Origin: Nibricoccus aquaticus
GTDB lineage: Bacteria > Verrucomicrobiota > Verrucomicrobiia > Opitutales > Opitutaceae
Length of the DNA stretch: 64,000 nucleotides
Direction of reading: 5' to 3'
Assembly: GCF_002310495.1 (NCBI RefSeq)
Contig: NZ_CP023344.1
Location: 3,117,501 to 3,181,500, forward strand
A model generated the notes under the pieces. That model worked only from the letters and a program-made list of their open reading frames with translations. It made no database searches and was not told where the DNA came from. Made by a program: the position numbers and the translations under genes. This document shows, in pieces, positions 5,013 to 50,806 of the stretch (its first letter is position 1; the number at the start of each line of letters is the position of its first letter).

Positions 5013-5025
5013 GGCTGTCATCGCC

Positions 5026-9830: not shown

Positions 9831-9912
9831 GCCCAGGCGAGGCGGGCGGTGACGGCGGCGTGGCAACTCTCGCCTTGAATCCACGGCGGTTGGGTTGTGC
9901 CCTGATCTTATT

Positions 9913-29489: not shown

Positions 29490-29514
29490 AAAATAATTTA
29501 GGCGGCGCTAAATT
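29490..29514 (-). terminator. Possible intrinsic terminator overlapping the wecE stop
   Basis: AATTTAG (29495-29501) and CTAAATT (29508-29514) form a seven-base stem with a six-base GC loop. On the minus strand it is followed by ATTTTCG. The stem is AT-rich and includes the stop codon of wecE, so it is weaker evidence than a GC-rich hairpin. Confidence 0.4.
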
Positions 29515-30640
29515 TTTGGACAGCATTGATTACCCGGGATTGGTCATCTTGAGTCAGGGTATTGTAGAAGGATAATCGTAGCAGGCGATCACTCACGTCT
29601 TCAGTAACCGGGCACTGCCCTTTTTTGCCACCCCAGCGGCTGGCATATTGGGACAGGTGCAGGGGAAGGTAGTGAAAAACAGCGAGTACGCCATGGGCCT
29701 TAAGATGTGCGATCAGTGCCTGCCGGGATTGGAGTGAAGGGAGAAGCAAGTAGTACATATGCCAGGCCTGTTCGCAGTAGGAGGGAACCGTGGGTTGGGT
29801 GACTCCGTTCCGGGCAGCCCAACCCGAGAGTTCGGAGTGGTATCGATTCCAGAGTAAGCGACGTTTTCCTTGAATGTCCTCCCAACGCTCAAGCTGGGCA
29901 TAGAGGAATGCCGCCAGCACGTCGCTCATAACATAGCTGCTGCCAACATCGACCCACGAATATTTGTCGACCTGCCCGCGGAAGAAGTTCGCCCGGTTGG
30001 TGCCTTTTTCGCGGATGATCTCCGCGCGCTCGGCATAGCGATGATCATTGATCAACAAGGCACCACCCTCCCCACAGGTGATGTTCTTGGTCTCGTGAAA
30101 ACTCTGAGTGGCGAGCGCGCCGATAGTGCCCAGCCAGCGCCCTTTGTATTTACCGAAAAGGCCGTGGGCATTGTCTTCCACTACTGGTATTCCATGCCGT
30201 GCCGCGATGGCGTTTATCTCATCCATGGCGCAGCTTACGCCGGCGTAATGCACCACGACAATCGCCTTGGTCCTAGGGGAGATCAACTCTTCGAGTTTGG
30301 CCTCATCTAGGTTAAGCGTATCGTGGCGAACATCGCAAAAAACCGGCCGGGCGCCGCGTAAGACGAAGGCGTTGGCTGTAGAGACAAAGGTGAATGATGG
30401 AACGATCACCTCATCCCCTGTCTGGATATCGAGCAGAATTGCCGTCATTTCTAAGGCGTGGGTGCAAGATGTCGTGACGAGCGCCCGCTTGGTGCCGAGG
30501 ACATCCTCCAGAAGCTTGTGGCATTTTTTAGAAAAAAGCTGGTCACCGGCAATCTGGCCAGCCTCCAAGGTTAGGTTAATGTATTCCAATTCGCGTCCCG
30601 CCAGGGACGAACGATTGAAAGGAAGATTAGGGGTGGTCAT
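29498..30640 (-). CDS. wecE: dTDP-4-amino-4,6-dideoxygalactose transaminase
   Basis: 380 residues from the ATG at 30640, which overlaps the wecD stop by 4 bases. PLP-dependent sugar aminotransferase that adds an amino group to dTDP-4-keto-6-deoxyglucose to give dTDP-Fuc4N. It matches WecE/RffA in the opening (FNRSSLAGRELEYI), the VTTSCTHALEM segment, VVEDNAHGLFG, and the Schiff-base Lys185 in SFHETKNITCGEGGAL. The DSRxxGTNR-like EKGTNRANFFRG is also family-typical. It works with WecD directly upstream and uses the product of rfbA-rfbB. Confidence 0.93.
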   Translation of the reverse strand: MTTPNLPFNRSSLAGRELEYINLTLEAGQIAGDQLFSKKCHKLLEDVLGTKRALVTTSCTHALEMTAILLDIQTGDEVIVPSFTFVSTANAFVLRGARPVFCDVRHDTLNLDEAKLEELISPRTKAIVVVHYAGVSCAMDEINAIAARHGIPVVEDNAHGLFGKYKGRWLGTIGALATQSFHETKNITCGEGGALLINDHRYAERAEIIREKGTNRANFFRGQVDKYSWVDVGSSYVMSDVLAAFLYAQLERWEDIQGKRRLLWNRYHSELSGWAARNGVTQPTVPSYCEQAWHMYYLLLPSLQSRQALIAHLKAHGVLAVFHYLPLHLSQYASRWGGKKGQCPVTEDVSDRLLRLSFYNTLTQDDQSRVINAVQKFSAA

Positions 30641-31404
30641 TGTAATTCGTGCGTCGAGGGAAACCAGTGATGGAACCATACTGAGGACTCAATGTGGCGG
30701 AAGCCGACAGCTTGGTAGAGTCGGAGTGCGGGCAGATTCGATGCTTGGGTCGCTACATTTACGATGCTGCAATGCGAAGCTCGAAACCAATTCAAGCCTG
30801 CATGAACAAGTGCTCGACCGATGCCTTTCCCTTGGGATTGCGTGTCGACAGCGATTAATCCGATGCGCCCTTGCCGGATCTCGGGATCAATTTGGCAGGT
30901 GATGTAGCCTGCCGGCCGATCACGTTCTCCCGGACAAGTTGCCATTATCACGTGATGTATCTTCAGGTCGCGTTGAATCCACTCTCCATAAAGATCCTGC
31001 GCTCTATGACGGGGAAAACCTAGGTCCTTGAAAAAGCGGGTGTCGTAATGTGATTTTCTCGCGAGGGCTTGTAAATTGCCCAAGTCCGTTGGACTAGCAG
31101 ATCGGATTACATCCTCAGGTTCAGAATAAGCAGATGTCGATTCAAGTGAAAGCGCCAGCTCGACACGGACATCAATAAATTGAAAGCCGGCCCTGAATGC
31201 GAGTTGGAGTGTTTCGGCGTGCGTCCCGTCACCTGAGAAATACAAACACCGAATATTCTGTTTCTCGCTCCACTCAAGAATCGCGGCAGTGGAAATCTCG
31301 GTTAATTGCGAATCCTTAACTCGACCGATGCGAAACCCAAAGAAATTAGTGTCCCAAGGCAAAAGAACACAGGGTTGGGGATCTTGTGCAGTAGAGTTGA
31401 TCAT
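30637..31404 (-). CDS. wecD: dTDP-4-amino-4,6-dideoxygalactose N-acetyltransferase (GNAT)
   Basis: 255 residues. It resembles WecD/RffC: LPWDTNFFGFRIGRV near the N-terminus, SHYDTRFFKDLGFPRHRAQ in the middle, then the GNAT acetyl-CoA loop QSQGKGIGRAL and the family end LYQAVGFRHIESSVWFHHW. The enzyme acetylates the amino group made by WecE to give dTDP-Fuc4NAc, a building block of enterobacterial common antigen and of some O-antigens. No other ECA genes are near, so the sugar is likely part of this locus' own glycan. Confidence 0.9.
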   Translation of the reverse strand: MINSTAQDPQPCVLLPWDTNFFGFRIGRVKDSQLTEISTAAILEWSEKQNIRCLYFSGDGTHAETLQLAFRAGFQFIDVRVELALSLESTSAYSEPEDVIRSASPTDLGNLQALARKSHYDTRFFKDLGFPRHRAQDLYGEWIQRDLKIHHVIMATCPGERDRPAGYITCQIDPEIRQGRIGLIAVDTQSQGKGIGRALVHAGLNWFRASHCSIVNVATQASNLPALRLYQAVGFRHIESSVWFHHWFPSTHELQ

Positions 31405-31450
31405 TTGTTCGGTGTCGACGGTGGCTCAATGAGGGCATGTCCAATGGATC

Positions 31451-32395
31451 TCAATGACCGGAGGGGAGTATTTCACTGACGATGAAGGACGGGCGACGCT
31501 TCACTCCCTCGAAGATCTTGCCAACGTAAAGGCCTACGATTCCGTTGATCAAGATGATGAGACCAGCCAAAACCCATACTGAGACAATCAAGCTGGAATA
31601 ACCTAGTACGGTGATTTTTTCCCTCAGGGCTTGCACGATTGTGTAACCGGCAAACACGAACCCCGTTGCTGAGATTATCACGCCAGTCTTGACGGCAAGC
31701 TTGAGGGGCTTGTCCGAGTAGGCCAATGCGATATCGCAAGCGAGGTTGAACAACTTGGACCAGTTGTAGCTGGATGGGCCTTCAGGGCGTGCGGCGTGGA
31801 CCACATCGATGGAGGTGGACCGGAATCCAACCCATCGCACCATCGTAGGGAAGTAGCGGATACTCTCTGGCATTGCGTTGATCGCCGCGACGACCTTGCG
31901 ATGATAGATACCAAAATTTGCCACAGCAGGGTCCAGTTTGCTGCCCGTGAGATAACTTAGGCCTCTATAAAAAAGGCGGGAAGTGGCTCTTTTAAGGAGG
32001 TTGTCCTGGCGGACTGAACGGCGGGCGAGGACAATGTCATGCCCCTCCAGGGCTTTGTTTAGCAAATTCGGTATTTCTTCCGGCTGATCTTGTAGATCGC
32101 AATCCATGACGATAACCCACTCGCCGCGGGAAATATTTAGTCCTGCCGAGATAGCATAGTGCTGGCCGAAATTTCGGCTTAGCCGCAGGCCAACAACATG
32201 GGAATTTTGGGCACACAGACGTGCGACAGCATTCCAACTGGCATCCGGGCTACAGTCTTCAACCAGAATGATTTCGTATGTAATGCCGATTTCCCCAAGC
32301 ACTTTTGTTAGTCGACTGATCAAAAGATCGAGCAATTTTTCTGCTCGATAAACCGGACTAACAATAGAAATTTTGATCGCTGGATTCGAAGACAT
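31451..32395 (-). CDS. GtrB-like polyprenyl-phosphate glycosyltransferase
   Basis: 314 residues from the ATG at 32395; a TTG two codons upstream is an alternative. It has SIVSPVYRAE, LVEDCSPDAS, LSRNFGQHYAISAGL and the metal site VMDCDLQDQPEEI, followed by two C-terminal helices (GVIISATGFVFAGYTIV and VLAGLIILINGIVGLYVG). This is the standard layout of bactoprenol glucosyl/GlcNAc transferases. In the same operon a GtrA domain (41052-42125) and two GT-C-like proteins could complete a flip-and-transfer system. Confidence 0.93.
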   Translation of the reverse strand: MSSNPAIKISIVSPVYRAEKLLDLLISRLTKVLGEIGITYEIILVEDCSPDASWNAVARLCAQNSHVVGLRLSRNFGQHYAISAGLNISRGEWVIVMDCDLQDQPEEIPNLLNKALEGHDIVLARRSVRQDNLLKRATSRLFYRGLSYLTGSKLDPAVANFGIYHRKVVAAINAMPESIRYFPTMVRWVGFRSTSIDVVHAARPEGPSSYNWSKLFNLACDIALAYSDKPLKLAVKTGVIISATGFVFAGYTIVQALREKITVLGYSSLIVSVWVLAGLIILINGIVGLYVGKIFEGVKRRPSFIVSEILPSGH

Positions 32396-32415
32396 GGGCA
32401 AGGAAGTAGGTGGGC

Positions 32416-34245: not shown

Positions 34246-35991
34246 CTAGCGGAATGCCGTGAGTGCGGTCTTTGCCGGATTTTGGAGGTCTTTTCGGATA
34301 AGAAAGGCCGCATCAGGCAGCATGCGAACCAGCCGGTAGGGTCTATCTGAAGTTTTCTCAGCATCCAATTCAACGGCTTTAGCGAAAGCATCTCTAGCCT
34401 TTAGGAATCCTTCATAGTTAGCCGAAGTAGCACTCGGCAGCGGAATTTTGCCGGAAATGTATCCGAATTGCCACTTCTCGCTTAGTATTATAGCATGAAA
34501 CTGCCGATCCCATGCTGCGAATGGTTCCCATACGGGCTCAATAACGAGTCCTGGTTGTGAGTCGGGCAGGAAAAGAAAGGGATCGTAGGCTATTCGTAAA
34601 GTCTCTGACGGGTGATCGCGTCGATGGGTATCCGCAATCGCCTCAATGATGAAGAGTGCTTCCCTATAAGTAGCCAAACCGCTTTGAAAGACTGGATCAT
34701 CTGTGCGCTTGGCCAGAAGGTCGAATTGCTTGAGCGCTGCCCGATTGCTCATTATCAAGGCAGGCAAGGCCGCCGAGCAAGCGATGATGATGACGGTGAG
34801 ATTCAATGCTTTGTATCTTCGCTCGGTTGAGCTGGCACGTATCAAGTATTCTCCAGCAAGAACAACTCCGAGAACCGCCAGCATTTCTGCGGGATGCAGA
34901 TAGAATCCCCACAGCCGTTTGACTAACATGATAATCGGTACTCCTAGCGCCGTCGCCATGAAGAGCAGCACCAGAGGGCTTTCTGCGGCTACCAGATCTT
35001 TCCAACTTTTCCATTTGCGAGCCATGGCGATGATGGCGGCTAGGAGTAGCCCGATTACCACCAAAACCATTAATCCGATTGCAAAAGCTGACGCGTAACT
35101 TCTCACCGCATCGCCGCCAAAAATGGAGCGAAGCCAAGTCAAGGGTGTCACTTGAGCATCGTCACTCCCATGCCCTGTAGCTTGAAAAGTCCACTGTAGA
35201 TAAGATTGGAGCCGGCTCGGTGTTGGCCAGAAAAGCATGGGAACGGCGAGACACCATCCAAAGACAAAGGCGAAAGCTGCCTGCACTCCTGCACGAATAT
35301 GTTTAAGCGGAGATTCACGAGTTTGCAGGACTGCAAGAAGTCCGGCAGCTGCGCATAGTGGTAACGCAGAAATCTTGGTGCCAAATGTCAGGCCGAGAAA
35401 AAGCCAGTGCCAGCCGAACCCGTATTGTCGGCGAACCGCCAATGCCAGGAAAACGGCGAGAAACAGCATCTGCAGCGGTTCAGGCTTGGGCTGAGTAAGA
35501 TAGTAATCGGTGAAGGGGAGACTGGTGAGTACAACCAGAGCGACAAACCTGCCTTGCCAACTGCGCAGCAATGTCAGGCACAGGAGGACGTAGCTTCCGA
35601 GCAAGAAGACGACCTGGGCACTACGCATGGCGACGATCAGTCCCGCATCGCCCCAAATACGATAGGGTATCGAGGAAATCAGGGCCGTGGCGTTGTAGAA
35701 TATGCGACCATAACGATGATCCCCTCCGTCGGACACTGCCCACCAGAACTGCTCAGAATCAGGAGCGGTCAGGATGCGCTTAACCCCATCGAATGGGATC
35801 ATCTCGTCCATGAAAAGGAATGGGCGTCCGACGATGAGGTCGGAGTTCGCGTAGGTGGCGATTCCAGCCACGTAAACCAACCAAAGCCAAAAGCTGATCT
35901 GAGTCAGACGTGAAGTCCAAGTCAGGTTTTGGCACAGTGGCAGTGAATGGCCCTGACTTGTTTCAGTAGCCGCTCCAATGGGCCGATTCAT
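34246..35991 (-). CDS. GT39/ArnT-like polytopic membrane protein
   Basis: 581 residues with about ten hydrophobic segments. The first loop reads LFMDEMIPFDGV, an acidic M-D-E motif at the position where ArnT/PMT-type GT-C transferases have D-E. A soluble tail of about 160 residues follows. Its ATG overlaps the GDPD-like gene by 4 bases, so it is part of the operon that starts at 42125. A role transferring a polyprenyl-linked sugar in the periplasm is inferred. Confidence 0.72.
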   Translation of the reverse strand: MNRPIGAATETSQGHSLPLCQNLTWTSRLTQISFWLWLVYVAGIATYANSDLIVGRPFLFMDEMIPFDGVKRILTAPDSEQFWWAVSDGGDHRYGRIFYNATALISSIPYRIWGDAGLIVAMRSAQVVFLLGSYVLLCLTLLRSWQGRFVALVVLTSLPFTDYYLTQPKPEPLQMLFLAVFLALAVRRQYGFGWHWLFLGLTFGTKISALPLCAAAGLLAVLQTRESPLKHIRAGVQAAFAFVFGWCLAVPMLFWPTPSRLQSYLQWTFQATGHGSDDAQVTPLTWLRSIFGGDAVRSYASAFAIGLMVLVVIGLLLAAIIAMARKWKSWKDLVAAESPLVLLFMATALGVPIIMLVKRLWGFYLHPAEMLAVLGVVLAGEYLIRASSTERRYKALNLTVIIIACSAALPALIMSNRAALKQFDLLAKRTDDPVFQSGLATYREALFIIEAIADTHRRDHPSETLRIAYDPFLFLPDSQPGLVIEPVWEPFAAWDRQFHAIILSEKWQFGYISGKIPLPSATSANYEGFLKARDAFAKAVELDAEKTSDRPYRLVRMLPDAAFLIRKDLQNPAKTALTAFR

Positions 35992-36626
35992 GTGGCGATT
36001 GATTCAGTCGTTACAGGTGCTGCAAGTGCATTCATCCATGTCGTAGCATGCGAAAGTGCGGTCATTACTGCGGATGGTTGAAAACTCAGTTTTCGCATTT
36101 GTGCGGCATATGCAGGAATGTCTGCTGGCCGGCCCCAACGTTCCGGGCAAACGAGACATGTGGAAAAGCCTTGAAGGGCGGCGACAGTTTTGTGGTCAAG
36201 CGGCAGTCGTGTATTTGAGTCTATCCAGACCCAGTCGATCTTCGTGTGATAATTAAGCACAGTTTCTATCGCTTCATCTTCTGAGTAACGCATGGCGATG
36301 CGCCGTTCTCCTGCGCGACTTGCCCGGTAAATGTAGGGGAACTCTACATCGAGTAGAAAGAACCGTTTGATCCCTCGCGCTTCTACGAGCCGGATGACTT
36401 CGGCCTCAATGCCTGCCTCTTTAATATTTAGTACGAGCAGACCGTGTTGATAGCCATCTAACCAATCCGTGAAGTATTCGCCGCCTTTGAATGGGTCGTG
36501 GTTTAGCACGAGCTTACTCCCTTCGGCTCGAAGATCGATCTCGGCTCCGAAGTGACGGGGAATGTCCGCAAGTCGCGCGCGTTCGTTGACGCGATGGATG
36601 ACAAGTTCTGGGCGGGGTATGTTCAT
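35988..36626 (-). CDS. Glycerophosphodiester phosphodiesterase-like TIM-barrel protein
   Basis: 212 residues from the ATG at 36626, which overlaps the upstream GT2 stop by 4 bases; a start at 36695 would run deep into that gene. The N-terminus carries the GDPD-type triad in order: H11-R12 in VIHRVNE, E29 and D31 in GAEIDLR, and H43-D44 in LVLNHDPF. The length is a little shorter than typical GDPDs. The family hydrolyses glycerophosphodiesters or related sugar phosphodiesters. Beside a nucleotidyltransferase and a 2H phosphoesterase it may act on a phosphodiester-linked sugar or polyol. No signal peptide is visible, so it is cytoplasmic. Confidence 0.7.
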   Translation of the reverse strand: MNIPRPELVIHRVNERARLADIPRHFGAEIDLRAEGSKLVLNHDPFKGGEYFTDWLDGYQHGLLVLNIKEAGIEAEVIRLVEARGIKRFFLLDVEFPYIYRASRAGERRIAMRYSEDEAIETVLNYHTKIDWVWIDSNTRLPLDHKTVAALQGFSTCLVCPERWGRPADIPAYAAQMRKLSFQPSAVMTALSHATTWMNALAAPVTTESIAT

Positions 36627-37360
36627 AGCTTGCCAGTCCGGATATCGCGGCGCAGTTGACCGATAAAGGCCCACGTGCGTTTGATGAGTTTCCATTTCAA
36701 GCGGAGCGAGCCAGCGCCTCCCTTGGCCTCGCCAAATGTGCGGCGTGCGAAGACCACCGGCATGCGCTCTATCGAATAGCCGAGACGACGGCCTAGGAAG
36801 AGCATGTAGAGATCGAGCGAGAAATCATGAGGAGGATTTTTCACTTCATCGAAAAGAGCCCGAGGGAAAAGCTTGGGCTGTGCGTTTACGTCACTTACTC
36901 GGATGCCAAGTGCGAGGCAGGAAAGCAGGGTCATTCCTGCGGTGAAAAAGGCATCGAACGCATTACGTCCTACACGTCTTCCTTGCAGAATTGTCCGGTC
37001 AGGCCGGGGACTTGCGATCAGGCGTTTGAAGCCTTCGACCACATAGTGCGGGTCATATTGTGAGTCGGCATGGGTCCAGCCAATGAATTTTCCCTGCGTG
37101 GCACGCAGACCCGCGAGGATTCCGAAACCGTAGCCTTGATTGACCGTCACATCGACCAATCGCGCCCACTGACGCCCAGGCTGTGCGAGCTGAATTGCGA
37201 AGATGTCACTGGAGTTATCCTTGGATCCGTTATTAACGAATACGACTTCAAGATCATTACGTCCCTCCAGGACTTCATCGAAACGAGAAAATAGCTGAGG
37301 CAGGGTTTCGCTTTCGTTGTAGCAAGGAAGAACGACTGAAAAGACGGGAGTCATCGACAT
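36623..37360 (-). CDS. Family 2 glycosyltransferase (DPM1-like)
   Basis: 245 residues from the ATG at 37360. A TTG at 37381 would overlap the upstream stop by 4 bases and is also possible. It has FSVVLPCYNESETLPQL, VVFVNNGSKDNS, NQGYGFGILAGL and the metal site WTHADSQYDPHY. The composition DVNAQPKLFPRALF is also found in polyprenyl-phosphate mannose synthases. There is no C-terminal membrane pair. Donor and acceptor are unknown. Confidence 0.9.
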   Translation of the reverse strand: MSMTPVFSVVLPCYNESETLPQLFSRFDEVLEGRNDLEVVFVNNGSKDNSSDIFAIQLAQPGRQWARLVDVTVNQGYGFGILAGLRATQGKFIGWTHADSQYDPHYVVEGFKRLIASPRPDRTILQGRRVGRNAFDAFFTAGMTLLSCLALGIRVSDVNAQPKLFPRALFDEVKNPPHDFSLDLYMLFLGRRLGYSIERMPVVFARRTFGEAKGGAGSLRLKWKLIKRTWAFIGQLRRDIRTGKL

Positions 37361-37377
37361 GGCGGCGCTCGATTCGA

Positions 37378-38187
37378 TCAACGTTTTTCAAGTACGATCT
37401 GACGCTGAAGTGCGAAGTGCTGCGGGGCGATTGCGCAGAGCAGTCCATCCAAGGCGTTAACCAACCCCAAAAATACTTTTGGGAGATTGATGGTTTTGGT
37501 CTTTGCGATTACTCCACCTGACAATGGAAACAGCATGAACTCGGTGAATTTTTTGTGCGTTATCTTGAAGGCGGTTTGCTCTCGTTCAAACCGCGCTTGA
37601 TCGTCGAATAGGATGCGCGGTATGGCGCAGTTGGCCGACCAAAGATCACGGGGGTCGTTGCAGATCACATCGAAGGAGAACACATCAGGTTCGAAACTAT
37701 AGCCCTCGTGGCGCATAGCCCGTAAAATAGCTCTCATGGCAAGCGAGGTGTTGATCTCTTGAATAATTATCCGGCCGCCTGGTTTGAGCACTCGCTGGCA
37801 TTCCTTAAAAAATTGAGCCGGTGTCGCGAGATGATGAATCATGTTACTGGAGACGATGTAGTCGAGAGAGGCGTCAGCGTAAGGCATGTTGAGCGCATCG
37901 ACTTTGACCTCCACCCACGGGTGATCTGCGTAGTCTGTCAGAATGAAATCAGGCGCGACTATAAAGAGTTTGGAGAGTCCCGTTCCGCAGCCTACTTCGA
38001 TGCCTGATTCGCCGGGGCGAATGAAATCATTCATCCATTCGAATCGTTTGCGTAAGAGGTAGGTTAGATTGGAGGGCCGGTATTTGAGGTAGTTTTCTCT
38101 GGCTCTGACGACGTCACCGACGTGGTTCATTCGGTTGGCGTTGGGATCGGGAAAATACGGCTTACGGAGTAATAATTTATCTATCAT
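37378..38187 (-). CDS. Class I SAM-dependent methyltransferase
   Basis: 269 residues. SAM-binding IEVGCGTGLSKLFI, the acidic strand end ILTDYADHPWVE, then DALNMPYADASLDYIVSSNMIHHL and LKPGGRIIIQE form a full Rossmann core. The C-terminal helix region (LPKVFLGLVNALDGLL) is hydrophobic and could touch the membrane. It is 18 bases downstream of the nucleotidyltransferase gene. Substrate unknown; a sugar or glycan-end methyl group is likely. Confidence 0.9.
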   Translation of the reverse strand: MIDKLLLRKPYFPDPNANRMNHVGDVVRARENYLKYRPSNLTYLLRKRFEWMNDFIRPGESGIEVGCGTGLSKLFIVAPDFILTDYADHPWVEVKVDALNMPYADASLDYIVSSNMIHHLATPAQFFKECQRVLKPGGRIIIQEINTSLAMRAILRAMRHEGYSFEPDVFSFDVICNDPRDLWSANCAIPRILFDDQARFEREQTAFKITHKKFTEFMLFPLSGGVIAKTKTINLPKVFLGLVNALDGLLCAIAPQHFALQRQIVLEKR

Positions 38188-38205
38188 GAACGTCGGTGTG
38201 AGAGT

Positions 38206-38976
38206 TTAGCTGTGACTTAAAAAGTAGCCGCGCCAGTAGTTGTATGTGTCGAGGTCTCGGGGCGTGCCCCAGCAAATGTAGCGGTCAACTTCAAAGGGGA
38301 GTCCATGAGCGCCGCGTGAGAGGGCAAAGTTGATGGCGTTATCGACGTAGAATTCGTTTTTGATGCGGGAATTTGCGCGAATCATGTCGTCGCACGCATC
38401 GAGGAACAGACCTGCTCGGCGAAAACTGAAAGCTCCGATCACTGCATGATCCTTCATGGGGGTATCGCTCAGCGGAACTTTGACGGAAACTCCTGTGATT
38501 TGTCCGTCTTCGCCCGTCTTTACCCAGCCGTACATGCGCGGATCTTGCTGCACCGCCGGATTGTTCCGAAATGTCCAGACGAGGAAATCGCTGCGCGGAT
38601 CGCGCATCACCCGTTCGTAATCAGCCGGAGCCCATGTCATGGCGTTGTCGCAGGCGCCGATGTGAAGCTCATCATCGGGGCGCAATTCATCGCGCGCGAG
38701 CAGGCAGGTGCAGGCCTGGCCTTCGGTCAGATGATCGACGGTTATGACGATGCAGGGCTGGAAAAGTTTTTGGAGCGTGAGGTCGATCCTCGCTTGGGCG
38801 ATATGCTCGGCACGGCAGACAAAAATCCAGAGATCCGGTTTGGGAAGGCTGCGAGCGGCATGGACGATCATGGGTAGTCCGCCGACATCGATCAGCGGCT
38901 TGGGCACTGTGTAACCAGCATCGACGAAACGCTGACCAGCGCCGGCCATGGGGATGAGATTTACGCGTCGCGGCAT
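38206..38976 (-). CDS. NTP-transferase (sugar-phosphate nucleotidyltransferase-like)
   Basis: 256 residues from the ATG at 38976 (a TTG two codons upstream is possible). The loop LIPMAGAGQRFVDAGYTVPKPLIDV is the NTP-transferase signature (G-x-G-x-R ... P-K-P). LLARDELRPDDELHIGACDNAM supplies the metal-binding region, and KVPLSDTPMKDHAVIGAFSF follows. This subgroup is common in capsule and O-antigen loci with non-standard activated groups. The nucleotide and substrate cannot be read; a cytidylyl-activated polyol or phosphate compound is one option. Confidence 0.88.
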   Translation of the reverse strand: MPRRVNLIPMAGAGQRFVDAGYTVPKPLIDVGGLPMIVHAARSLPKPDLWIFVCRAEHIAQARIDLTLQKLFQPCIVITVDHLTEGQACTCLLARDELRPDDELHIGACDNAMTWAPADYERVMRDPRSDFLVWTFRNNPAVQQDPRMYGWVKTGEDGQITGVSVKVPLSDTPMKDHAVIGAFSFRRAGLFLDACDDMIRANSRIKNEFYVDNAINFALSRGAHGLPFEVDRYICWGTPRDLDTYNYWRGYFLSHS

Positions 38977-38993
38977 AATCAAAAGAGCAGATG

Positions 38994-39614
38994 TCAGCCC
39001 GCAGTCCCGGTCAGGGCAAGTTCGGTCAATCGGTTATGATGATCTGCCATGACCTGCCAGATGGAGATGGTGTTCACGTGTAATTCGTGGATGGGCGAGC
39101 CGTTCATCAAGCTGGCGAGCAGTGGATCGTTCGCAGGCAGGCGCGGTGAGCCGATCGTGAAATGGGGAATCCAATGAGGCCCTACAAAGGGAAAACCGAA
39201 GTGTTTAAGGCTGCTGGCAAACGGTTCGCGATCGGCAAGCGGGTGCTGGAGGGACGAGGACTCGCGGAAAGGCGCGACGACTTCAGCTATGGTTAGCTGC
39301 AATCGGAGGAGCTCTGGGGAGAGTTTAACACGGTAAGCAACGGTGTGACCGCCTGCCGCCTGGAGATCGTTGGGGAATTCCTGCCAGGCATCGGTTGCGA
39401 GCCGGAAGGGAGGGAGGGAGTTGACGGCCGCTCGTAATTTCCCGGTCCAGATTTCAGGGGAGCCATACTCGCCAAACAGCAGGGTGCTGTGTGGTGGGTG
39501 GCTTGTGTAGGCTTGCCCGGGCATCGCCAGCTCGAGGATTTTTTTTCGTTCGATCAGCGAGGTGCGAAGCGTGCCTTGTGGCTCGATGAAGATGGCGGTT
39601 CGCGGGAGGTTCAT
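38994..39614 (-). CDS. 2H phosphoesterase (2'-5' RNA ligase-like)
   Basis: 206 residues whose ATG overlaps the upstream gene by 4 bases. It has two H-x-T motifs of the 2H superfamily, H42-S-T44 in HPPHSTLLFGE and H151-F-T153 in WIPHFTIGSP, spaced as in 2'-5' RNA ligases and cyclic phosphodiesterases. The family opens 2',3'-cyclic or 1'',2''-cyclic phosphates, or forms 2'-5' links. Its setting in a glycan operon suggests hydrolysis of a cyclic sugar phosphodiester, not tRNA repair. That is inference. Confidence 0.82.
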   Translation of the reverse strand: MNLPRTAIFIEPQGTLRTSLIERKKILELAMPGQAYTSHPPHSTLLFGEYGSPEIWTGKLRAAVNSLPPFRLATDAWQEFPNDLQAAGGHTVAYRVKLSPELLRLQLTIAEVVAPFRESSSLQHPLADREPFASSLKHFGFPFVGPHWIPHFTIGSPRLPANDPLLASLMNGSPIHELHVNTISIWQVMADHHNRLTELALTGTAG

Positions 39615-41065
39615 ATGCGGTGCGCGACGAGCGCATCGGTGATGCGCGCCACTTGTTCTGGGGTCAGGTCGAGATAGCTGCGGCCATCGAGGCGAAGCAG
39701 CGCAACCGTCTCCAGGTGATCAACCGGGATCAGGTGCCACTGATGACGTGGGATATTCAGCCCTGCGCCCAGCAGGCAGCGAAGGACGACATTGTGGGAA
39801 ACGACAAGCGATGGGCGTTCATCGAGACCGGCAATGAACGACTGCAAGCGTTCGTGAACATCGCTGGTATTTTCGCCCCCCGGAAAGCGTGGGTCTTCGT
39901 GGCGGGACCAAGCGGCGAAAAGTTCCGGACGCTCTGTGCGGAGTTTTGCGATGCTGAGTCCTTCTGCCGAGCCATAATCTATTTCGTGAAGGCGTGGATC
40001 GACCTCGATGAAGACTGCAGGCGCGAGCGCTGCAGCGGTTGTCTGGCAGCGTATCGCCGGGCTGGAAAAAATGCGGGAAGGGCGCGCAGCCAATGGCGGA
40101 GGAAGCGTGAGAATGCCGGGATCGCGCCGCTGCCCTAGAAAGGAGCCATCGTTGAGGGCGGTTTTCCCGTGGCGTAGGAAGAGATGACGGGTGGCGCGCC
40201 GTTGCCAGGTATCATTGAGATGGTCGGCGAAGGCCGTGATAAACTCCCGGGTGTGGCTGATGGTATCGACGGGGAAGCTGCACTCCCGCTCCTGTTTGAT
40301 CGCCGCAATTTTCGAGAACCACTCGATGAAGGGAATGCAGGCGGGAAGATAATCCCTCCAGAAGGCGAAGAACTCCTGTTGCGACAGCTTGTGGTTACGA
40401 CCGGCAACCAACTTGGCGTAGTTCGCTACGAGATTATTGACGATATGGTAGGCGTATTCGCCTTGGTGGCGTGGGTCTAGGTTCAGTCGCTCGGCTTGCT
40501 CGCAGCAGCCTGAGGAGGAAAATTCGTAACGGCGAAAGCTGATGGAGCCGGCGGCGAGATCATCGAGGTAGTTGTTGAGGCTCCGGCGAGCATCAAGAAA
40601 ATGCCGGGGAAAAAGCGCGAGGACAGGATAGATGTCGCGTAGTGATGAACCGAGTACATGCGTGCTGCGTTCCCAGTCGAGGCAGGTGAACGGACTTTTC
40701 AGGACGTGCTCACGATGCCCCTGGAGATCGTAAATCATGAGGTGGACAACCACCAGGCCGGGTTCGTCGAATTTGAGCGGACCGAAGGTGTCGTTGATGC
40801 GCAGCTGGTGGGAGGGGAGTCCGAGCAAGGCTGGCGAAATAGCTGTAGTGGCCTTGCGGCACGCCGAGAAAATTTCCTCGGTCAACGCGTCGACGATCAC
40901 GATGACGTCGATGTCGCTGATTCCGGTGAGTCCGGGCTTTTCAACGAAGGAGCCCGTGAAGGTGACCGAGCGGATGCCCGGAATTTCCCCGAGGCTGAGG
41001 GCGAGCGCGGAAGCGAAGGTCTGCTTGGAGGAATCGGTGAGGGTGATGCGGTTAGACAGCCTCAT
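39611..41065 (-). CDS. Nucleotidyltransferase–histidine phosphatase fusion
   Basis: 484 residues. N-terminal minimal nucleotidyltransferase domain: FTGSFVEKPGLTGISDIDVIVIVD, with G38-S39 and the metal-binding D51-x-D53. A helical middle (about 100-290) resembles no family I recognise. C-terminal histidine phosphatase domain: R298-H299-G300 in LFLRHGKTALN, SSPAIRCQTT, the acid in HEIDYGSAEG, and the second His in VVSHNVVLRCLL. All four catalytic landmarks are intact, so the phosphatase is probably active. It is coupled to the 2H gene by a 4-base overlap and overlaps the GtrA fusion by 14 bases. A sugar-1-phosphate or nucleotide-linked substrate is likely. Confidence 0.85.
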   Translation of the reverse strand: MRLSNRITLTDSSKQTFASALALSLGEIPGIRSVTFTGSFVEKPGLTGISDIDVIVIVDALTEEIFSACRKATTAISPALLGLPSHQLRINDTFGPLKFDEPGLVVVHLMIYDLQGHREHVLKSPFTCLDWERSTHVLGSSLRDIYPVLALFPRHFLDARRSLNNYLDDLAAGSISFRRYEFSSSGCCEQAERLNLDPRHQGEYAYHIVNNLVANYAKLVAGRNHKLSQQEFFAFWRDYLPACIPFIEWFSKIAAIKQERECSFPVDTISHTREFITAFADHLNDTWQRRATRHLFLRHGKTALNDGSFLGQRRDPGILTLPPPLAARPSRIFSSPAIRCQTTAAALAPAVFIEVDPRLHEIDYGSAEGLSIAKLRTERPELFAAWSRHEDPRFPGGENTSDVHERLQSFIAGLDERPSLVVSHNVVLRCLLGAGLNIPRHQWHLIPVDHLETVALLRLDGRSYLDLTPEQVARITDALVAHRI

Positions 41066-42125
41066 GATTATTGGAGGTCTGCAGGCGCATGATCTGACGG
41101 GCTGGATTTTCCGCCATGAGTACAGATGACCCTGAGACGACGAATTCCACGTTGAGCAGGTGGACGTTTTTTTCGTTCACGCCTCCATCGATGCAGATTT
41201 TGAAGTGAGCGCGTCCAGACCACTTGTTGATGGCTTCAATTCGTTCAAGGGCTTCGATCTGGAAGCTCTGGCCTGACTGGCCGGGCCGGGCGATGGTGAG
41301 CAGCATCAGCAGGGTGATGCGGTTGAGAAAGGGAGTGGCCGCATCGAGGGTGGTTGCATGAGTCAGCGCGAGTCCGGGCTGCCGTCCTGCGTCCTCGATG
41401 GTTTTAAGCACCTGCGCCAAGTCTTCATCGATTTCATGATGTACGATCACCGTATCGGCGTAGGGCAGAACTTCAGACAGCCATCGTGTGGGGCGGCGGG
41501 TCATCAGGTGGACATGGATTTTGCGCTGTGGCCAGTAAGCTCGAATAGTCTCCAAGCGGTAGGAGCGTACATCGGTGTCGGAAGCGCCGAAGGAGGCGTC
41601 GATGAGATCGACGTGAATGAAGTCGGGGAACTCGCCGATTTTCTCCCGGATGCCACGGATGTCTTCCACGCCGTTTGCGTAAATGGCCACGCCCACCTGC
41701 TTGCGATCAGCGAAGGAATACCGGCGGTGCAAAATATACCCGAATGAAAACAAAACTGCCGAAACCCCGAAACGGGCTTGTTCGTAGCTCCAGCCGAGAT
41801 CGAGCAGCTGTGTCCGGAAAGCGTAGTTGAGAAGTGCGGACAATCCGGAGATGCCGGCAAAATACAGCAGTGCGCGGTTCCTCTTCGCGACTGGAACCTT
41901 GAAGTTGAACCTGACGTTCATCCAGTAGGCAAAGAGCACGCTGATCGTAAGCCCGCAGGATTGGGAGGCGAGCAGCGGAAGGCCCAGGTAGTGAAGTCCC
42001 CGCAGCAGGAGGATTTCGATCCAAAGCGACGTCACCCCGAAGACTATGTAAACGAGCAGAAATCGATGACGGTAGAGACGAAATTGCAGTCCGGCGTAGA
42101 AGGAAGGTGCGAGGACGTCTTTCAT
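41052..42125 (-). CDS. GtrA-like membrane domain fused to ribulose-phosphate 3-epimerase-like domain
   Basis: 357 residues; first gene of the tight minus-strand operon. Residues 20-140 form a GtrA-like four-helix domain, with WIEILLLRGLHYLGLPLLAS, the conserved ISVLFAYWMNVRFNF and FSFGYILHRRYSF. Residues 145-350 form an RPE-like TIM barrel. The epimerase landmarks are IHVDLIDASFGA (H171, D173, D176), IHVHLMTRRP (H206), HHEIDED, ARPGQSGQSF, CIDGGVNEKN (D313) and VVSGSSVLM. These include the metal ligands expected of pentulose-phosphate 3-epimerases. GtrA proteins flip undecaprenyl-phosphate sugars. The join is not at a frame shift: the reading frame is continuous and the linker short. Confidence 0.85.
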   Translation of the reverse strand: MKDVLAPSFYAGLQFRLYRHRFLLVYIVFGVTSLWIEILLLRGLHYLGLPLLASQSCGLTISVLFAYWMNVRFNFKVPVAKRNRALLYFAGISGLSALLNYAFRTQLLDLGWSYEQARFGVSAVLFSFGYILHRRYSFADRKQVGVAIYANGVEDIRGIREKIGEFPDFIHVDLIDASFGASDTDVRSYRLETIRAYWPQRKIHVHLMTRRPTRWLSEVLPYADTVIVHHEIDEDLAQVLKTIEDAGRQPGLALTHATTLDAATPFLNRITLLMLLTIARPGQSGQSFQIEALERIEAINKWSGRAHFKICIDGGVNEKNVHLLNVEFVVSGSSVLMAENPARQIMRLQTSNNHEAV

Positions 42126-46151: not shown

Positions 46152-46973
46152 TTATTTTTGTTTGGGGGCGGGGGTCAGCCAGGTTTTGACGAGCAGTGGC
46201 CAGCGGACGAAGCGTGAGTTTAGCGAGGCCATGAGTTGATCGACAATCGTGTCGAGGCGGCGCGTTTGCTGGTCGTGGTGCTGCTGCATGGCGGCGGTGA
46301 GCTGTTCTGTTTTTTCGGCTGAGCTAGTGGCTGCCTGGCTCTGGATTTGCACGAGTTGCTCCAATAGCCGGATACGATCAGCCAGGGATGCCGTGAGCGT
46401 GTTTAGCTCGTTTTGCGCTGTCTGGGTTCTGTCATGGGCGGTTGTGACCTGAGTCTGAAAGGACTCCAGCTGGCTGGTGAGTTTACCCGCGAGATCTTTG
46501 TGCAGGGCTTCGGTGTGTGCCGGGAGCTTGTCGATCCGCGCGTGGATTTCGGTTTTGGCTGAGGTGACTGTGGTCTGGGTGGCGGTGAAGCAGGCGGTGA
46601 CTGACGACTGGAGCGTGCCTTGTCCGGCGGCGTTTTGTTTGTGAAGCGAGTCGAGCCCGTCGACCAAGTGTTTGTTTCTTTCTTCGATGGCGGTCTGGAT
46701 CGTGATGAGACGGCTGGACTCTTGCTGGTGGGTGAAGGCGAGGGCGCGGGCCTTGTCGGCTTCGGCAGTCATCAGGGCGAGCTCTTGCTGGAGCTTGGCC
46801 TGCGTTTCCTGCGCCTGAGCGGTCGATGTGCTTTGGCGTGTGCTGAGTGTTTCGAGGGCGGCAGCCTGTTCGCGGAGGACGCCAAGCAGGCGGGAGATTT
46901 CCTGATCTTTGGCTTCTAGGATTCCTTCCAGGTCGGCATCTCCCGGGGTGTCGTAGGCGGGCTGTGATTCCAT
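46152..46973 (-). CDS. Coiled-coil protein
   Basis: 273 residues. It is almost entirely heptad-like, rich in Gln, Glu, Thr, Ala and Leu, from residue 15 (LEGILEAKDQEISRLLGVL) to about 245 (MQQHHDQQTRRLDTIVDQL). No signal peptide or membrane segment and no catalytic domain is seen. The C-terminus is basic and hydrophobic (RFVRWPLLVKTWL) and could touch the membrane. It lies 12 bases downstream of the coiled-coil glycosyltransferase gene. It may be a scaffold or length-setting rod of the polymerising complex; that is inference. Confidence 0.8.
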   Translation of the reverse strand: MESQPAYDTPGDADLEGILEAKDQEISRLLGVLREQAAALETLSTRQSTSTAQAQETQAKLQQELALMTAEADKARALAFTHQQESSRLITIQTAIEERNKHLVDGLDSLHKQNAAGQGTLQSSVTACFTATQTTVTSAKTEIHARIDKLPAHTEALHKDLAGKLTSQLESFQTQVTTAHDRTQTAQNELNTLTASLADRIRLLEQLVQIQSQAATSSAEKTEQLTAAMQQHHDQQTRRLDTIVDQLMASLNSRFVRWPLLVKTWLTPAPKQK

Positions 46974-46985
46974 GATGGGTGAGTG

Positions 46986-48881
46986 TTAGCTGGAGCCGGG
47001 GAGGGCGATAGGGCTGATGCGGTGCTGGTTGGAGAGAGTATCGAGGAGGTGCTGGGTGTGGGAAGCCTGTCGTGCGTGGGCTTTTTTCAGCAAAGAGAGG
47101 CGGGAGTGTGCCAGTGAGCGGAGGCGTTGCGCGGTCTGCTCCTGGGCTTGGAGTTGCCCGAGGAGGCTCGCAATTCGCTGTTCCTGGGTGGCGGCGAGCG
47201 CAGAGGATTTTTCGAGCTGGGTCTGGAGTTTGTCGCGCTCGGCGGCGGCGGTGGCTTTATCGGCTGCAGCCTGCTGCTGAGTGGTGGCGTGTTTTCGTAT
47301 CGCTTGCTCGCATTGGGCTTTGAGCGACTCGATATACGCCGTCTGTTCGGCTGCGGTCTGTCCTAGCTTGGAGAGTTGATCGCGCAGGGATGCGATGAGT
47401 GCGTCCTGATCTGTCTGCTGTTTTTTGAGCAGGGAGATGAAGTTGTCCTGCTCGGAAAGGGAGGCCAGGTGCCGTTGAGATTCGGCGAGAACATGCGAGT
47501 GATCCTGGCGCAGTGATTCGCGCTCGGATTCGAGCGATGCGATGTAGGCTGCCTGCTTTTCCGCGATCTCTGTGAGTGGAGCGAGTTGAGGGGTGAGTGC
47601 CCTCGAGTTTTTTTCGTGACGGGTGGCTGTTTCGGCGGCGGCGCGGATCTCGGAGTCGAGCTGGTCGCGTTGTTTTTCCAGGCTGGCGATATAGGCGGTC
47701 TGCTCGTGAGCAGTCGCCGCGAGTTTGTCCAACTGGTCTTTCAGGGATGCGAGTGTGCGGTCGTGCTCGGCGTGCTGCGACTTGAGCTGGGCGATGAATG
47801 ATTCCTGTGTAGCGAGAGATTTAAGGTGGCGCTTAGATTCAGCGACGGAGAGGGCACTGGCCTGCTGAAGAGAGTCGCGCTCGGATTCGAGGGTTTTGAT
47901 GTAGGCGGTCTGCTCGGCGGTTGTTTTGGCGATGTGATCGCGCTGGGTGGCCGCGGTCACGGACTCACTTTGCAAGCGGTCGCGATCCTCGGTAGTGGCT
48001 TTGAGCGCGGCCGTTTGCTCGGCGACTATTTTGTCGAGGCGGTCGATCTCGGCGGCGGTGTCGTTGCGCGTGAAAAGCGAGGCTTGGAATTCGTCGATTT
48101 TGCGAAGCAAAACATCTTTGTAGTTCTGTAGGAAAAACGGGTCTGCCAATAGTAGTTTAAAGCGTACGATCAGCTCTAGTATCTGGCTGGCTTCGCGTTG
48201 TCCGCTCCAGATGCCGCCGACATGTTTGCGATAGGCGCCCATGTTGCGGCGTATGAATCCCAGTTTGCCGCTGAAGGTTAGCAGGATGTCGAGGTAGAGG
48301 TCGCTAGGCCGACGCAGATACCATTCGGGCAATGGTTCTGCGAATGCGGACCTGCGAAAAACCATCGAGCACGTGGGCTGACGGCTTAAGAGAGAATCGA
48401 TTATGTCGTGCTGAGAAAATTTATCTTTGGGAGAGTCAAAGTAACTTTTTTGGATCGTATCGCCATTTTGATCGACCAAACGCACGTCATGAAAACAGCC
48501 GGCACAGTCAGTATTGGCGCGTAAGTAATCTACCTGACTCTGGAGCTTTTTGGGGTCGGTCCAATAATCGTCACCTTCACAAAGCGCGATAAATTCGCCG
48601 TGCGCCTCGCGCAAGGTCATGCGGAAATTAAAACTTCCCCGGGGCCGTCCATCGATGAGGACTGCGTCTTTTCTGCTGCGAAGAAAAACTCTGATCTTTT
48701 CGGGATACCGGTGTGCGTAGTCCTGACATACTTCGCGAGTTCCATCGCTTGATTCATCTTCACCAACCAGAATTTCAAAGGGGAAGTCCGTTTTCTGCGC
48801 CAACGCACCTTCTATCGCTTTAGAGACAAAGCGTGCGTGCTGGTAGGTGATAAGGCAGACACTTAGCAACGGATGGGCCAT
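46986..48881 (-). CDS. Family 2 glycosyltransferase with long repeated coiled-coil tail
   Basis: 631 residues from the ATG at 48881 (MAHPLLSVCLITYQ); a start at 48974 would overlap the WbqC-like gene. Residues 1-260 form a GT2 domain with LVGEDESSDGT and the metal site CEGDDYWTDPKKL, then RRPSDLYLDILL. Residues 275-625 form a coiled coil with an internal duplication. Residues 325-395 and 444-515 align almost throughout (AYIKTLESERDSL versus AYIASLESERESL, AESKRHLKSL versus AESQRHLASL). The tail could act as a rod, measuring glycan length or tethering the enzyme to its partners. Confidence 0.87.
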   Translation of the reverse strand: MAHPLLSVCLITYQHARFVSKAIEGALAQKTDFPFEILVGEDESSDGTREVCQDYAHRYPEKIRVFLRSRKDAVLIDGRPRGSFNFRMTLREAHGEFIALCEGDDYWTDPKKLQSQVDYLRANTDCAGCFHDVRLVDQNGDTIQKSYFDSPKDKFSQHDIIDSLLSRQPTCSMVFRRSAFAEPLPEWYLRRPSDLYLDILLTFSGKLGFIRRNMGAYRKHVGGIWSGQREASQILELIVRFKLLLADPFFLQNYKDVLLRKIDEFQASLFTRNDTAAEIDRLDKIVAEQTAALKATTEDRDRLQSESVTAATQRDHIAKTTAEQTAYIKTLESERDSLQQASALSVAESKRHLKSLATQESFIAQLKSQHAEHDRTLASLKDQLDKLAATAHEQTAYIASLEKQRDQLDSEIRAAAETATRHEKNSRALTPQLAPLTEIAEKQAAYIASLESERESLRQDHSHVLAESQRHLASLSEQDNFISLLKKQQTDQDALIASLRDQLSKLGQTAAEQTAYIESLKAQCEQAIRKHATTQQQAAADKATAAAERDKLQTQLEKSSALAATQEQRIASLLGQLQAQEQTAQRLRSLAHSRLSLLKKAHARQASHTQHLLDTLSNQHRISPIALPGSS

Positions 48882-48945
48882 CTGTGAGTGGGATAGTAGC
48901 CGATGCGCAGGTCTGGTTCGCAAGTATTGTGTGCGTGGTTTGATA

Positions 48946-49665
48946 TCAGCCTGAAGTGTGTGCGGGGGCCGCACGCAAATGCCGGAGGATCTCTTCGGGC
49001 GAGTTCCACATCAGAACATCTATGATAGAAAGGTCCGGAACGAAATCGTAGCCTGGGGTAGTGTAGTGAAATGACCGATGCTCCTGAATAGTGAGTTTGA
49101 TCCCCTTTGCGGCAAAGGCTGCGGAGTCGAAAAGATCGCGTCCGCCGGGTGGATTGATGTATTCCGTGGCGTTTAGCGCCGACGAAATCTCAAGTGCCCA
49201 TTGGCCGGGGTGAGTGATCGGCGGAAGAGACAGGTTTAGAGAAGAGAAACAGCGAATTTTTAAACGTAAGCCTAGCAACTCACAGCAGGCGGTCATCAGT
49301 CGGACATTCACGTCTGCGATGGATGCTCCTGGAGTTCCGCTCAGCGTGGTTGAGAGAAATTCCGTGATAGACTGAAAATAGGGTGCCTTTTTCCGATAGT
49401 GTTGCAGTTGGCCGATGATGCGCTCGCACCAGTCATTTCCGGATGCGGCGAAGACATCTTTGATAGCCGTTTCGCGTGCGTGCTTTTGCAGTGGGACAAT
49501 CACGTACTGCCACGAAGTTGTCGGGTGCAGGATGCGGTTTCGATTAACCCAGCCGTGACGGATGTACTGTGCCGTGTCGAAAACGATCCACTCATCGCAT
49601 TGCCTGATCAGGTCAAAGTACCCCAGATATGGAGCGAAATACGGCTGCATGATGCCTAATTTCAT
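48946..49665 (-). CDS. WbqC-like protein
   Basis: 239 residues beginning MKLGIMQPYFAPYLGYFDLI, the WbqC family signature, followed by FDTAQYIRHGWVNRNRIL. WbqC-like proteins occur in O-antigen loci near sugar aminotransferases and are thought to act on amino sugars, but the exact reaction is not firmly known to me. It starts 22 bases after the aminotransferase gene's stop, which supports a joint pathway. No membrane segment is seen. Confidence 0.9.
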   Translation of the reverse strand: MKLGIMQPYFAPYLGYFDLIRQCDEWIVFDTAQYIRHGWVNRNRILHPTTSWQYVIVPLQKHARETAIKDVFAASGNDWCERIIGQLQHYRKKAPYFQSITEFLSTTLSGTPGASIADVNVRLMTACCELLGLRLKIRCFSSLNLSLPPITHPGQWALEISSALNATEYINPPGGRDLFDSAAFAAKGIKLTIQEHRSFHYTTPGYDFVPDLSIIDVLMWNSPEEILRHLRAAPAHTSG

Positions 49666-49687: not shown

Positions 49688-50806
49688 TCAGGCCGGGGCT
49701 CGTGCATGAGCAACGAGAGTTCCGATGATTATTTCTTGCAGTTCCGGTGTCACAAGATCGGACATGGGGAGACAAAGAACTTTTTCAGCGGCAGACTCCG
49801 ATACAGGACAAGGGTGCCCGGATATGTATGATATACGATTGAGTGATGGGTAAAAGTATCGGCGTGGGTAGATGTTGAGCGCTGCGAGCGCTGCCAGGCT
49901 GCGTTCAACAGCAGATTCGGTTGGCAGTAGCACAGGGAAGTAAGCGTAGTTATATTCCAAGTTCACTGATTCGGGACGTGGAATGCGAACCGAAGTTCCG
50001 GAGAGCAGTTGGGAGTAGTTGTCGTGCTGGCGTCGGTGGCGCGCAAGATTGGCGTCCAAGTGGACCAGATTGCACAGCCCCATGGCTGCATGAAACTCGG
50101 AGTTCTTACCGTTAATTCCGAGATGGCGGTGGTCGTCGCGGTGATGTCCGAAGGCACGAGTAAGCCGTATCCGCTCAGCGAGGCTGGCGTCGTCATTGAT
50201 AACAATCGCGCCACCTTCGACGGTGTGAAAAATTTTGGTGGCGTGAAAGCTAAGGCAGCTCACATCACCGAAAGTGGCCAATGCACGGCCATCCAAGCGG
50301 CAGCCGAATGTGTGAGCTGCATCATAAATCACCTTTAGATTATGTCGCCGTGCGATGTCTGAGATTGCGGCAACGTCGCAGGGGAAACCGTAAACATGCG
50401 TTGCCAAGATAGCGCGAGTCCGGGGAGTTATGGCTGCTTCGATCAGATTCGGATCGATAGTCAGGTCGCCAAGGCGGATATCCACGAATACCGGCGTGCA
50501 GCTTTCCCATAGGACAGCACTGGTTGTAGCGACATAGCTAAAGGGAGTGGTTATGATTTCTCCCTGTAAATTCAGTGCTTTGATGGCGATCTGTAAGGCT
50601 GCGGTGCAGTTGGTGACAAACCATATGTGGGGGCTTGCTAAGTAGCTGGCCAAACGCTGCTCAAGTTCACGTACCAATGGACCATTGTTGGTCAGGCAAT
50701 GGGTATCCCAAATCTGACGAATATAGCCCAGATACTCTTCCAATGGTGGTAGGGTAGAGCGGGTGACCATGATTGGCACAGGTACTGATGAAGTCTGTGA
50801 GGTCAT
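49688..50806 (-). CDS. DegT/DnrJ/EryC1/StrS family sugar aminotransferase
   Basis: 372 residues. Landmarks are NNGPLVRELEQRLASYL, FVTNCTAALQIAIKAL, TTPFSYVATTSAVLW, the PLP-binding Asp in VIYDAAHTFGCR, and the Schiff-base Lys in SFHATKIFHTVEGGAIV. It is a complete aminotransferase of normal length for a nucleotide-sugar 3- or 4-keto substrate. It lies between the WbqC-like gene and a truncated relative. Composition here is lower in GC than at 3-28 kb. Confidence 0.92.
   Translation of the reverse strand: MTSQTSSVPVPIMVTRSTLPPLEEYLGYIRQIWDTHCLTNNGPLVRELEQRLASYLASPHIWFVTNCTAALQIAIKALNLQGEIITTPFSYVATTSAVLWESCTPVFVDIRLGDLTIDPNLIEAAITPRTRAILATHVYGFPCDVAAISDIARRHNLKVIYDAAHTFGCRLDGRALATFGDVSCLSFHATKIFHTVEGGAIVINDDASLAERIRLTRAFGHHRDDHRHLGINGKNSEFHAAMGLCNLVHLDANLARHRRQHDNYSQLLSGTSVRIPRPESVNLEYNYAYFPVLLPTESAVERSLAALAALNIYPRRYFYPSLNRISYISGHPCPVSESAAEKVLCLPMSDLVTPELQEIIIGTLVAHARAPA

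Follow-up and report, generated by a model that had tools for sequence, protein, structure and literature searches.

A compact run of seven genes lies at 35988–42125 of the stretch analysed here, 64,000 nucleotides of Nibricoccus aquaticus DNA (contig NZ_CP023344.1, positions 3,117,501 to 3,181,500; this whole stretch is called the window). Six of the seven form a real, conserved operon that very probably follows the logic of Gtr-type glycan modification: its membrane protein GtrA and family 2 glycosyltransferase (GT2), together with an adjoining open reading frame (ORF) with multiple transmembrane segments (multi-TM ORF), point to a flipped polyprenyl-phosphate-sugar donor. This goes beyond the first-pass annotation of the DNA, which had proposed a compact seven-gene operon as a candidate undescribed pathway of glycan modification. 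More tentatively, and with slightly less than even confidence, we read the operon as a Gtr-type side-branch module that would make a polyprenyl-phosphate-linked pentulose from ribulose 5-phosphate for a surface glycan.

Gene Organization and Conservation

The ORF listing of the window confirms all seven genes, with their coordinates and overlaps, on the minus strand in the order first annotated. They are given below with the gene that follows them.

41052–42125, minus strand: GtrA-RPE fusion, a GtrA membrane domain and a ribulose-phosphate 3-epimerase (RPE) domain, the latter spanning 41052 to about 41705
39611–41065, minus strand: NTase-HisPhos fusion, a Pol-beta-type nucleotidyltransferase (NTase) and a CobC-like histidine phosphatase (HisPhos); 14-base overlap with GtrA-RPE
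38994–39614, minus strand: 2H phosphoesterase; 4-base overlap with NTase-HisPhos
38206–38982 (TTG start) or from ATG 38976 (gap 17), minus strand: NTPT, a sugar-phosphate-type nucleotidyltransferase
37378–38187, minus strand: MT, a class I S-adenosylmethionine (SAM) methyltransferase, an optional tailoring gene; gap 18
36623–37381 (TTG start), minus strand: GT2, probable polyprenyl-phosphate-sugar synthase (GtrB-like); overlap 4
35988–36626 (ORF as listed: 35988–36695), minus strand: phosphodiesterase-like protein with a predicted glycerophosphodiester phosphodiesterase (GDPD) fold, called GDPD-like
34246–35991, minus strand: multi-TM ORF, probable GT-C glycosyltransferase, from hydrophobic segments and position

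The GDPD-like gene more likely starts at ATG 36626, because its relatives begin at about that point in the alignment, and this start gives the 4-base overlap with GT2 that had been annotated. The multi-TM ORF in turn overlaps the end of the GDPD-like gene by 4 bases, so the gene run continues past seven; further along it, in the same direction and as first annotated, come a second multi-TM ORF, a GT2, a GNAT protein, and a DegT-family aminotransferase. A scan for promoters and terminators gave signals no commoner than in shuffled sequence.

A scan of genome contigs with a GDPD-like alignment confirmed 134 loci, and the 80 best by similarity to a window-led query were analysed. GtrA-RPE, NTase-HisPhos, 2H, NTPT, GT2, and GDPD-like stand in window order in three metagenome bins with loose taxon labels (loci L037, L039, and L041), and the same six genes recur in the same order in two further loci (L124 and L125), where an extra GtrA precedes GT2 and other ORFs lie between operon genes. 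The ORFs found among the operon genes of L125, at 2860–8618, include matches to 23S rRNA-intervening-sequence proteins, an ERCC4-type nuclease, and a ParE-like toxin. Proteins of these five other operons are 27–67% identical to those of the window. Because the six-gene order recurs in five other genomes, the gene set goes beyond chance; a fortuitous run of unrelated enzymes is refuted by an order kept across six genomes from two or more phyla, and we give it a negligible probability.

The proposal that the seven genes belong together is thus borne out for six of them, which co-occur in the five other genomes, and fails for the methyltransferase (Methyltransf_11, PF08241, 56.8 bits in Pfam), which had been assigned a step in the pathway. 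In a seed search its relatives lie near the GDPD-like gene in 5 of the 80 loci and are absent from the other five operons of the window type; relatives adjoin the related module described below in Hirschia (46% identity) and L038 (51%). On this distribution the methyltransferase is an optional add-on outside the conserved set.

The window-type operon is rare and patchy. An NTase-HisPhos alignment found four positives among 387 genomes of the window's phylum, namely the window genome and those of L037 (recognised by contig number and positions), L124, and L125, and among 395 genomes of the phylum of L041 it found that of L041 only. The full-length fusion was found in six genomes, in all six inside this gene set. 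Plasmids searched with NTase-HisPhos returned histidine-phosphatase matches alone, in two Paracoccus records, and viral contigs searched with a GtrA-RPE alignment yielded no confirmed locus.

A Widespread Module Sharing the Back End

The NTPT, GT2, and GDPD-like proteins have homologues (27–47% identity) in a widespread module, and the GtrA family occurs in both. Plasmids of E. coli, Azospirillum, and Hirschia carry the GDPD-like gene beside GT2, and near it are GtrA, a two-domain NTPT, a HAD phosphatase, a class II aldolase, and a large protein in which 8–10 hydrophobic segments are followed by a C-terminal phosphoribulokinase-like (PRK) domain. This kinase, the HAD phosphatase, and the aldolase occur together in 62 of the 80 genome loci and RPE, NTase, and 2H in three; kinase and NTase are never found together (0/80), and nine loci, several of them incomplete, have neither front end. 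These counts are to be read with the facts that many loci end at contig edges, that L086 and L091 are near-copies, and that L092 and L093 come from the same genome. Among the 49 wide-flank loci, 43 carry the kinase-HAD-aldolase trio and one is of the window type. Relatives of kinase, HAD, and aldolase are absent, at E 1e-4, from the five operon loci and from the whole 64-kb window.

A GDPD tree was built from 37 rows; the 28 rows that lie outside the window clade were hand-picked from among the 80 loci. All six window-type operons belong to one clade of nine members (support 100/100), without forming one group inside it (two label changes); of the other three members, L042 carries the kinase front end. 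One front end has probably replaced another while the back end was retained, as suggested by the mutual exclusion of kinase and NTase, the shared back end, and the place of L042 in the window clade.

The common module spans many phyla, including Prochlorococcus and Paenibacillus among its carriers; Flavobacterium phragmitis and a Massilia sp. are carriers that can be cultured. Viral contigs searched with the GDPD alignment gave three loci, two with the full module (L121 and L122, IMG/VR contigs), which may be prophage or miscalled host DNA. In an E. coli from human stool the module lies on a 33-kb IncR plasmid (L033, 6022–14984), and the same module, at 100.0% identity, is carried by a plasmid of bullfrog E. 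coli. An attempted link to an E. coli O-serotype failed: the plasmid module and a stretch of Yersinia proxima find matches in just 2 of 5426 genomes, on a plasmid in each case. In two Cytophagaceae bins (L086 and L091, at about 3600–11300) a GDPD-like and a HAD gene stand where the seeds found no NTPT, GT2, or kinase; the ORFs just before them resemble ribosomal proteins.

Front-End Proteins

The domain names first given to the operon proteins hold in Pfam, with the NTase below the cut-off itself and backed by its relatives, and with GDPD-like backed by its predicted fold. GtrA (PF04138, 40.6 bits, above the cut-off of 26.1) and RPE (PF00834, 96.4 bits) match one and the same protein. In an alignment of four GtrA-RPE fusions H171, D173, H206, and D313 are invariant, and we take these to be the RPE catalytic His/Asp set. 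The fused domain is best regarded as a relative of rpe, not an assured orthologue; it looks dedicated, because a separate, ordinary RPE above the curated cut-off is encoded elsewhere in the window genome. An RPE search across 188 genomes of the class matched 170, the matches listed being almost all to the RPE part alone, and is uninformative on the operon.

The phosphatase half of NTase-HisPhos matches His_Phos_1 with 98.4 bits (Pfam), and its nearest NCBIfam family is alpha-ribazole phosphatase (72.3 bits, under the cut-off of 162.9). R298, H299, R339, E361, and H424 are invariant in four sequences; R298, H299, R339, and H424 correspond to the R-H, R, H catalytic residues of histidine phosphatases. 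The NTase half is the weakest domain assignment of the operon, at 15.4 bits against a Pfam cut-off of 21; NTP_transf_2 matches three of four relatives searched singly (best E 3e-5), and the GS...DxD motif (G38, S39, D51, and D53) plus D113 is invariant in four sequences. Its low-confidence model (pLDDT 67.9, from four sequences) reached a best Z of 7.9 in fold comparison and found no Foldseek match at E 0.001; a weak AadA match (Z 5.1) was not used. The 2H protein matches PF13563 (2_5_RNA_ligase2; 36.4 bits, cut-off 27) and has two H-x-S/T motifs; H42 and H151 are unchanged among four sequences. Sequence searches of the PDB returned nothing convincing for NTase, 2H, or GDPD-like, and one weak match for NTPT (4evw, E 2.1e-4).

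Back-End Proteins

NTPT contains an NTP_transferase domain (PF00483, 28.3 bits in Pfam) and, of the double NTPT, resembles the second domain most closely, with 42–45% identity to this domain of the E. coli-plasmid and Azospirillum proteins. GT2 matches Glycos_transf_2 (PF00535, 59.7 bits in Pfam); its best NCBIfam family is an ArnC-type transferase (43.8 bits, far under the cut-off of 529), and a T-H-A-D-x-Q motif is invariant in seven sequences. The ORF at 34246–35991 has six hydrophobic segments and no Pfam or NCBIfam hit.

The GDPD-like protein likewise has no Pfam hit, and 35 members scanned to E 1 gave no GDPD family. Its name comes from a predicted fold, a GDPD TIM-barrel modelled with pLDDT 96.1 that aligns to the GDPD 4oec over 195 residues (Z 16.3, rmsd 2.9). 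H10, E28, D30, H42, and K68 are invariant in 35 sequences. So is N66-x-K68, which probably stands at the place of the E-x-K motif of canonical GDPDs, whose Glu is the third metal ligand. With Asn at this place, the chemistry of the family may differ from glycerophosphodiester hydrolysis.

The same fold, with its Z of 16.3 to glycerophosphodiesterases, could suggest that the module puts a phosphodiester on a glycan or lipid, with NTPT, also present, making a CDP-glycerol- or CDP-alditol-like donor that the GDPD-like enzyme trims or transfers; two polyol-type dehydrogenases near the core of locus L094 would fit. We consider this quite improbable, since GDPD has a GT2 in its company in 70 of the 80 loci and, in 51, a same-strand GtrA no more than 10.5 kb away, which points to polyprenyl-phosphate sugars, and since a Pfam scan of 14 window proteins turned up no phosphoglycerol transferase, LicD, or reductase. 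It is similarly doubtful that the operon makes an ordinary sugar donor and that phosphatase, 2H, and GDPD-like enzymes just clear damaged or stray nucleotide and cyclic-phosphate by-products. Histidine-phosphatase and 2H families are often clean-up enzymes, and catalytic-type residues are retained in all three proteins; the same neighbours in unchanged order across six genomes, together with the alternation with the kinase-HAD-aldolase set, suggest instead a role in the main route.

Identity of the Transferred Residue

Pentulose 5-phosphates are substrates common to RPE, the ribulose-5-phosphate 4-epimerase AraD, and phosphoribulokinase. Because RPE, AraD, and PRK-like front ends converge on these compounds, the transferred residue may be a pentulose, a choice that we hold a little short of evens. 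In L039 and L041 an AraD, overlooked by the aldolase seed and found by Pfam, directly follows GDPD (312.6 and 318.7 bits, subfamily cut-off 257). In the Micrarchaeota bin L094 a partial RPE stands a few genes before an NTPT-GDPD-NTPT-GT2 run, separated from it by the two polyol-type dehydrogenases and a xylose-isomerase-like protein. The pentulose would probably be D-xylulose in the window type and perhaps L-ribulose where AraD is present.

A Gtr-type module could also transfer an aldopentofuranose, a hexulose, or a smaller aldolase-made unit, for example from dihydroxyacetone phosphate or glycolaldehyde. The class II aldolase of the common front end best matches aldolase families (65.5 and 60.4 bits, well short of the cut-offs) and no AraD family at E 1e-5, and the window RPE also matches the allulose-6-phosphate epimerase family (69.1 bits, NCBIfam). 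RPE and AraD, on the other side, use C5 ketose phosphates and retain all carbons; neither the five window-type loci nor the window has a relative of the common-module aldolase; and no aldose-ketose isomerase appears among the operon proteins scanned (Pfam, NCBIfam). Kinase, ribulose-1,5-bisphosphate (RuBP) phosphatase, and aldolase would further fit a haloarchaeal route in which RuBP is converted to dihydroxyacetone phosphate and glycolaldehyde (PMC9700705). On these grounds a residue other than a pentulose is unlikely, though the likeliest of the alternatives.

Several points weigh against the pentulose reading. Key family assignments fall short of their curated cut-offs: the fused RPE reaches 93.1 of 212.6 bits for the rpe equivalog (TIGR01163, NCBIfam), the common-module kinase 205.5 of 236 for a phosphoribulokinase subfamily, the HAD phosphatase 168.2 and 181.8 of 330 for its nearest family, RuBP 5-phosphatase, and the AraD proteins of L039 and L041 286.1 and 298.2 of 389.1 for the araD equivalog. 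No AraD occurs in the window or in the fetched stretches of L037, L124, and L125. The window type is without a PRK-related kinase, and therefore the steps of the two front ends must differ; the common-module aldolase could split ribulose 1-phosphate instead of building a sugar; and the reading offers no reason for a GDPD-like enzyme. The operon genes of L124 and L125 are interrupted, in L124 by one ORF on the opposite strand, and the probable assignment of 34246–35991 to GT-C comes from hydrophobic segments and position. No known pentulose O-antigen is linked to the E. coli module.

Proposed Pathway

In the pathway that we propose, ribulose 5-phosphate would be taken from the pentose phosphate pathway and converted by the RPE domain to xylulose 5-phosphate; the histidine phosphatase would strip the 5-phosphate, freeing O5 so that the ketose could close to a furanose; and the two nucleotidyltransferases, with 2H and GDPD-like, would activate the anomeric C2 to give a nucleotide-pentulose. 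By Gtr logic, GT2 would load the pentulose onto polyprenyl phosphate, GtrA would flip the polyprenyl-phosphate-pentulose, and the GT-C candidate at 34246–35991 would attach the pentulose to a surface glycan outside; the methyltransferase may methylate the residue. In most other carriers, judged by nearest families, kinase, 5-phosphatase, and aldolase acting on ribulose phosphates would feed the same back end. Both module types contain a phosphatase that could clear C5 and two nucleotidyltransferase domains.

Enzymes of the 2H and GDPD-like folds act on phosphodiesters, and related families act on cyclic phosphates. A cyclic phosphosugar, named at first as a possible product, may be an intermediate at most. 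One specific though rather improbable scheme would have NTase nucleotidylate C1 of xylulose 5-phosphate, HisPhos remove the 5-phosphate, the anomeric C2 hydroxyl attack to give a 1,2-cyclic phosphate (GDPD-like), 2H open this to the 2-phosphate, and NTPT make the anomeric donor. A simpler route, in which NTPT would nucleotidylate the anomeric hydroxyl directly, stands on an equal footing with the cyclic one; in CMP-Kdo synthesis the nucleotide is placed straight onto the anomeric hydroxyl. The product of the haloarchaeal RuBP phosphatase is reported as cyclised ribulose 1-phosphate (PMC9700705), and xylulose in nature is said to occur as the furanose only (PMC9912281).

Relation to Known Systems

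The window run shares with GtrABC O-antigen cassettes a GtrA family protein, a GT2, and a multi-TM ORF, and the related module lies on small plasmids in the 2 of 5426 E. coli genomes. It differs from them in the fusion of GtrA to an epimerase and in supplying its own sugar-activation enzymes, whereas classical Gtr draws UDP-glucose from the host. Where the widespread module of NTPT, GtrA, GT2, GDPD, membrane-PRK protein, HAD, and aldolase has its last three, the window run has RPE, NTase-HisPhos, and 2H. The common front end shares a RuBP 5-phosphatase-like HAD and a class II aldolase with the haloarchaeal non-carboxylating pentose bisphosphate pathway (PMC9700705); that pathway serves nucleoside breakdown, whereas the present genes belong to a glycan module. 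The window type has no such HAD or aldolase.

Xylulose occurs in a bacterial O-antigen (PMC11380512) and in chlorovirus glycans (PMC9614988). The former, the Yersinia enterocolitica O:10 O-antigen, carries L-xylulose as a pentulofuranose side branch, the kind of product proposed here; a transferase for L-xylulose is proposed in that paper, whose section on O:10 names no donor-making gene (PMC11380512). O:10 strains are not known to carry either module. A paper on ribitol attributes the formation of CDP-ribulose to mammalian ISPD (PMC4924997). Two further papers are unrelated in the passages concerned: PMC12826051, which contains both GtrA and xylulose, deals with xylulose as an isoprenoid precursor, and PMC9437320 has just references on chemical synthesis. 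In the open-access literature searched, which leaves out most subscription papers, there is no recognisable description of the operon or the common module, no mention of CDP-, UDP-, GDP-, or ADP-xylulose, and no named gene or donor for bacterial xylulose synthesis. As far as that literature shows, the operon is undescribed, which is not proof of novelty.

Other Features of the Window

Downstream on the same strand, at 29498–32401, a GT2 (31451–32401, 90 bits), a GNAT acetyltransferase, and a DegT-family aminotransferase could together be another decoration cassette, for an amino sugar (WecD/WecE-like). At 46152–48974 two ORFs have translations with long Gln/Glu/Lys/Ala-rich, coiled-coil-like stretches, one of them beginning with a GT2-like region. 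The translation of 48946–49665 resembles WbqC-family proteins, and the neighbouring ORF at 49688–50806 is presumably a DegT-like aminotransferase.

Implications

If the cyclic scheme is true, the 1,2-cyclic route would be a phosphate migration replacing a mutase, and would represent new chemistry for making a nucleotide-activated ketopentofuranose, paralleled in most carriers by kinase, 5-phosphatase, and double NTPT. More broadly, the comparison of the two modules yields two candidate gene sets for the making of xylulose, one of them very widespread, that are testable in vitro. It would also give a name to a large block of surface-glycan genes that are now annotated just as phosphodiesterase, uridine kinase, and aldolase.

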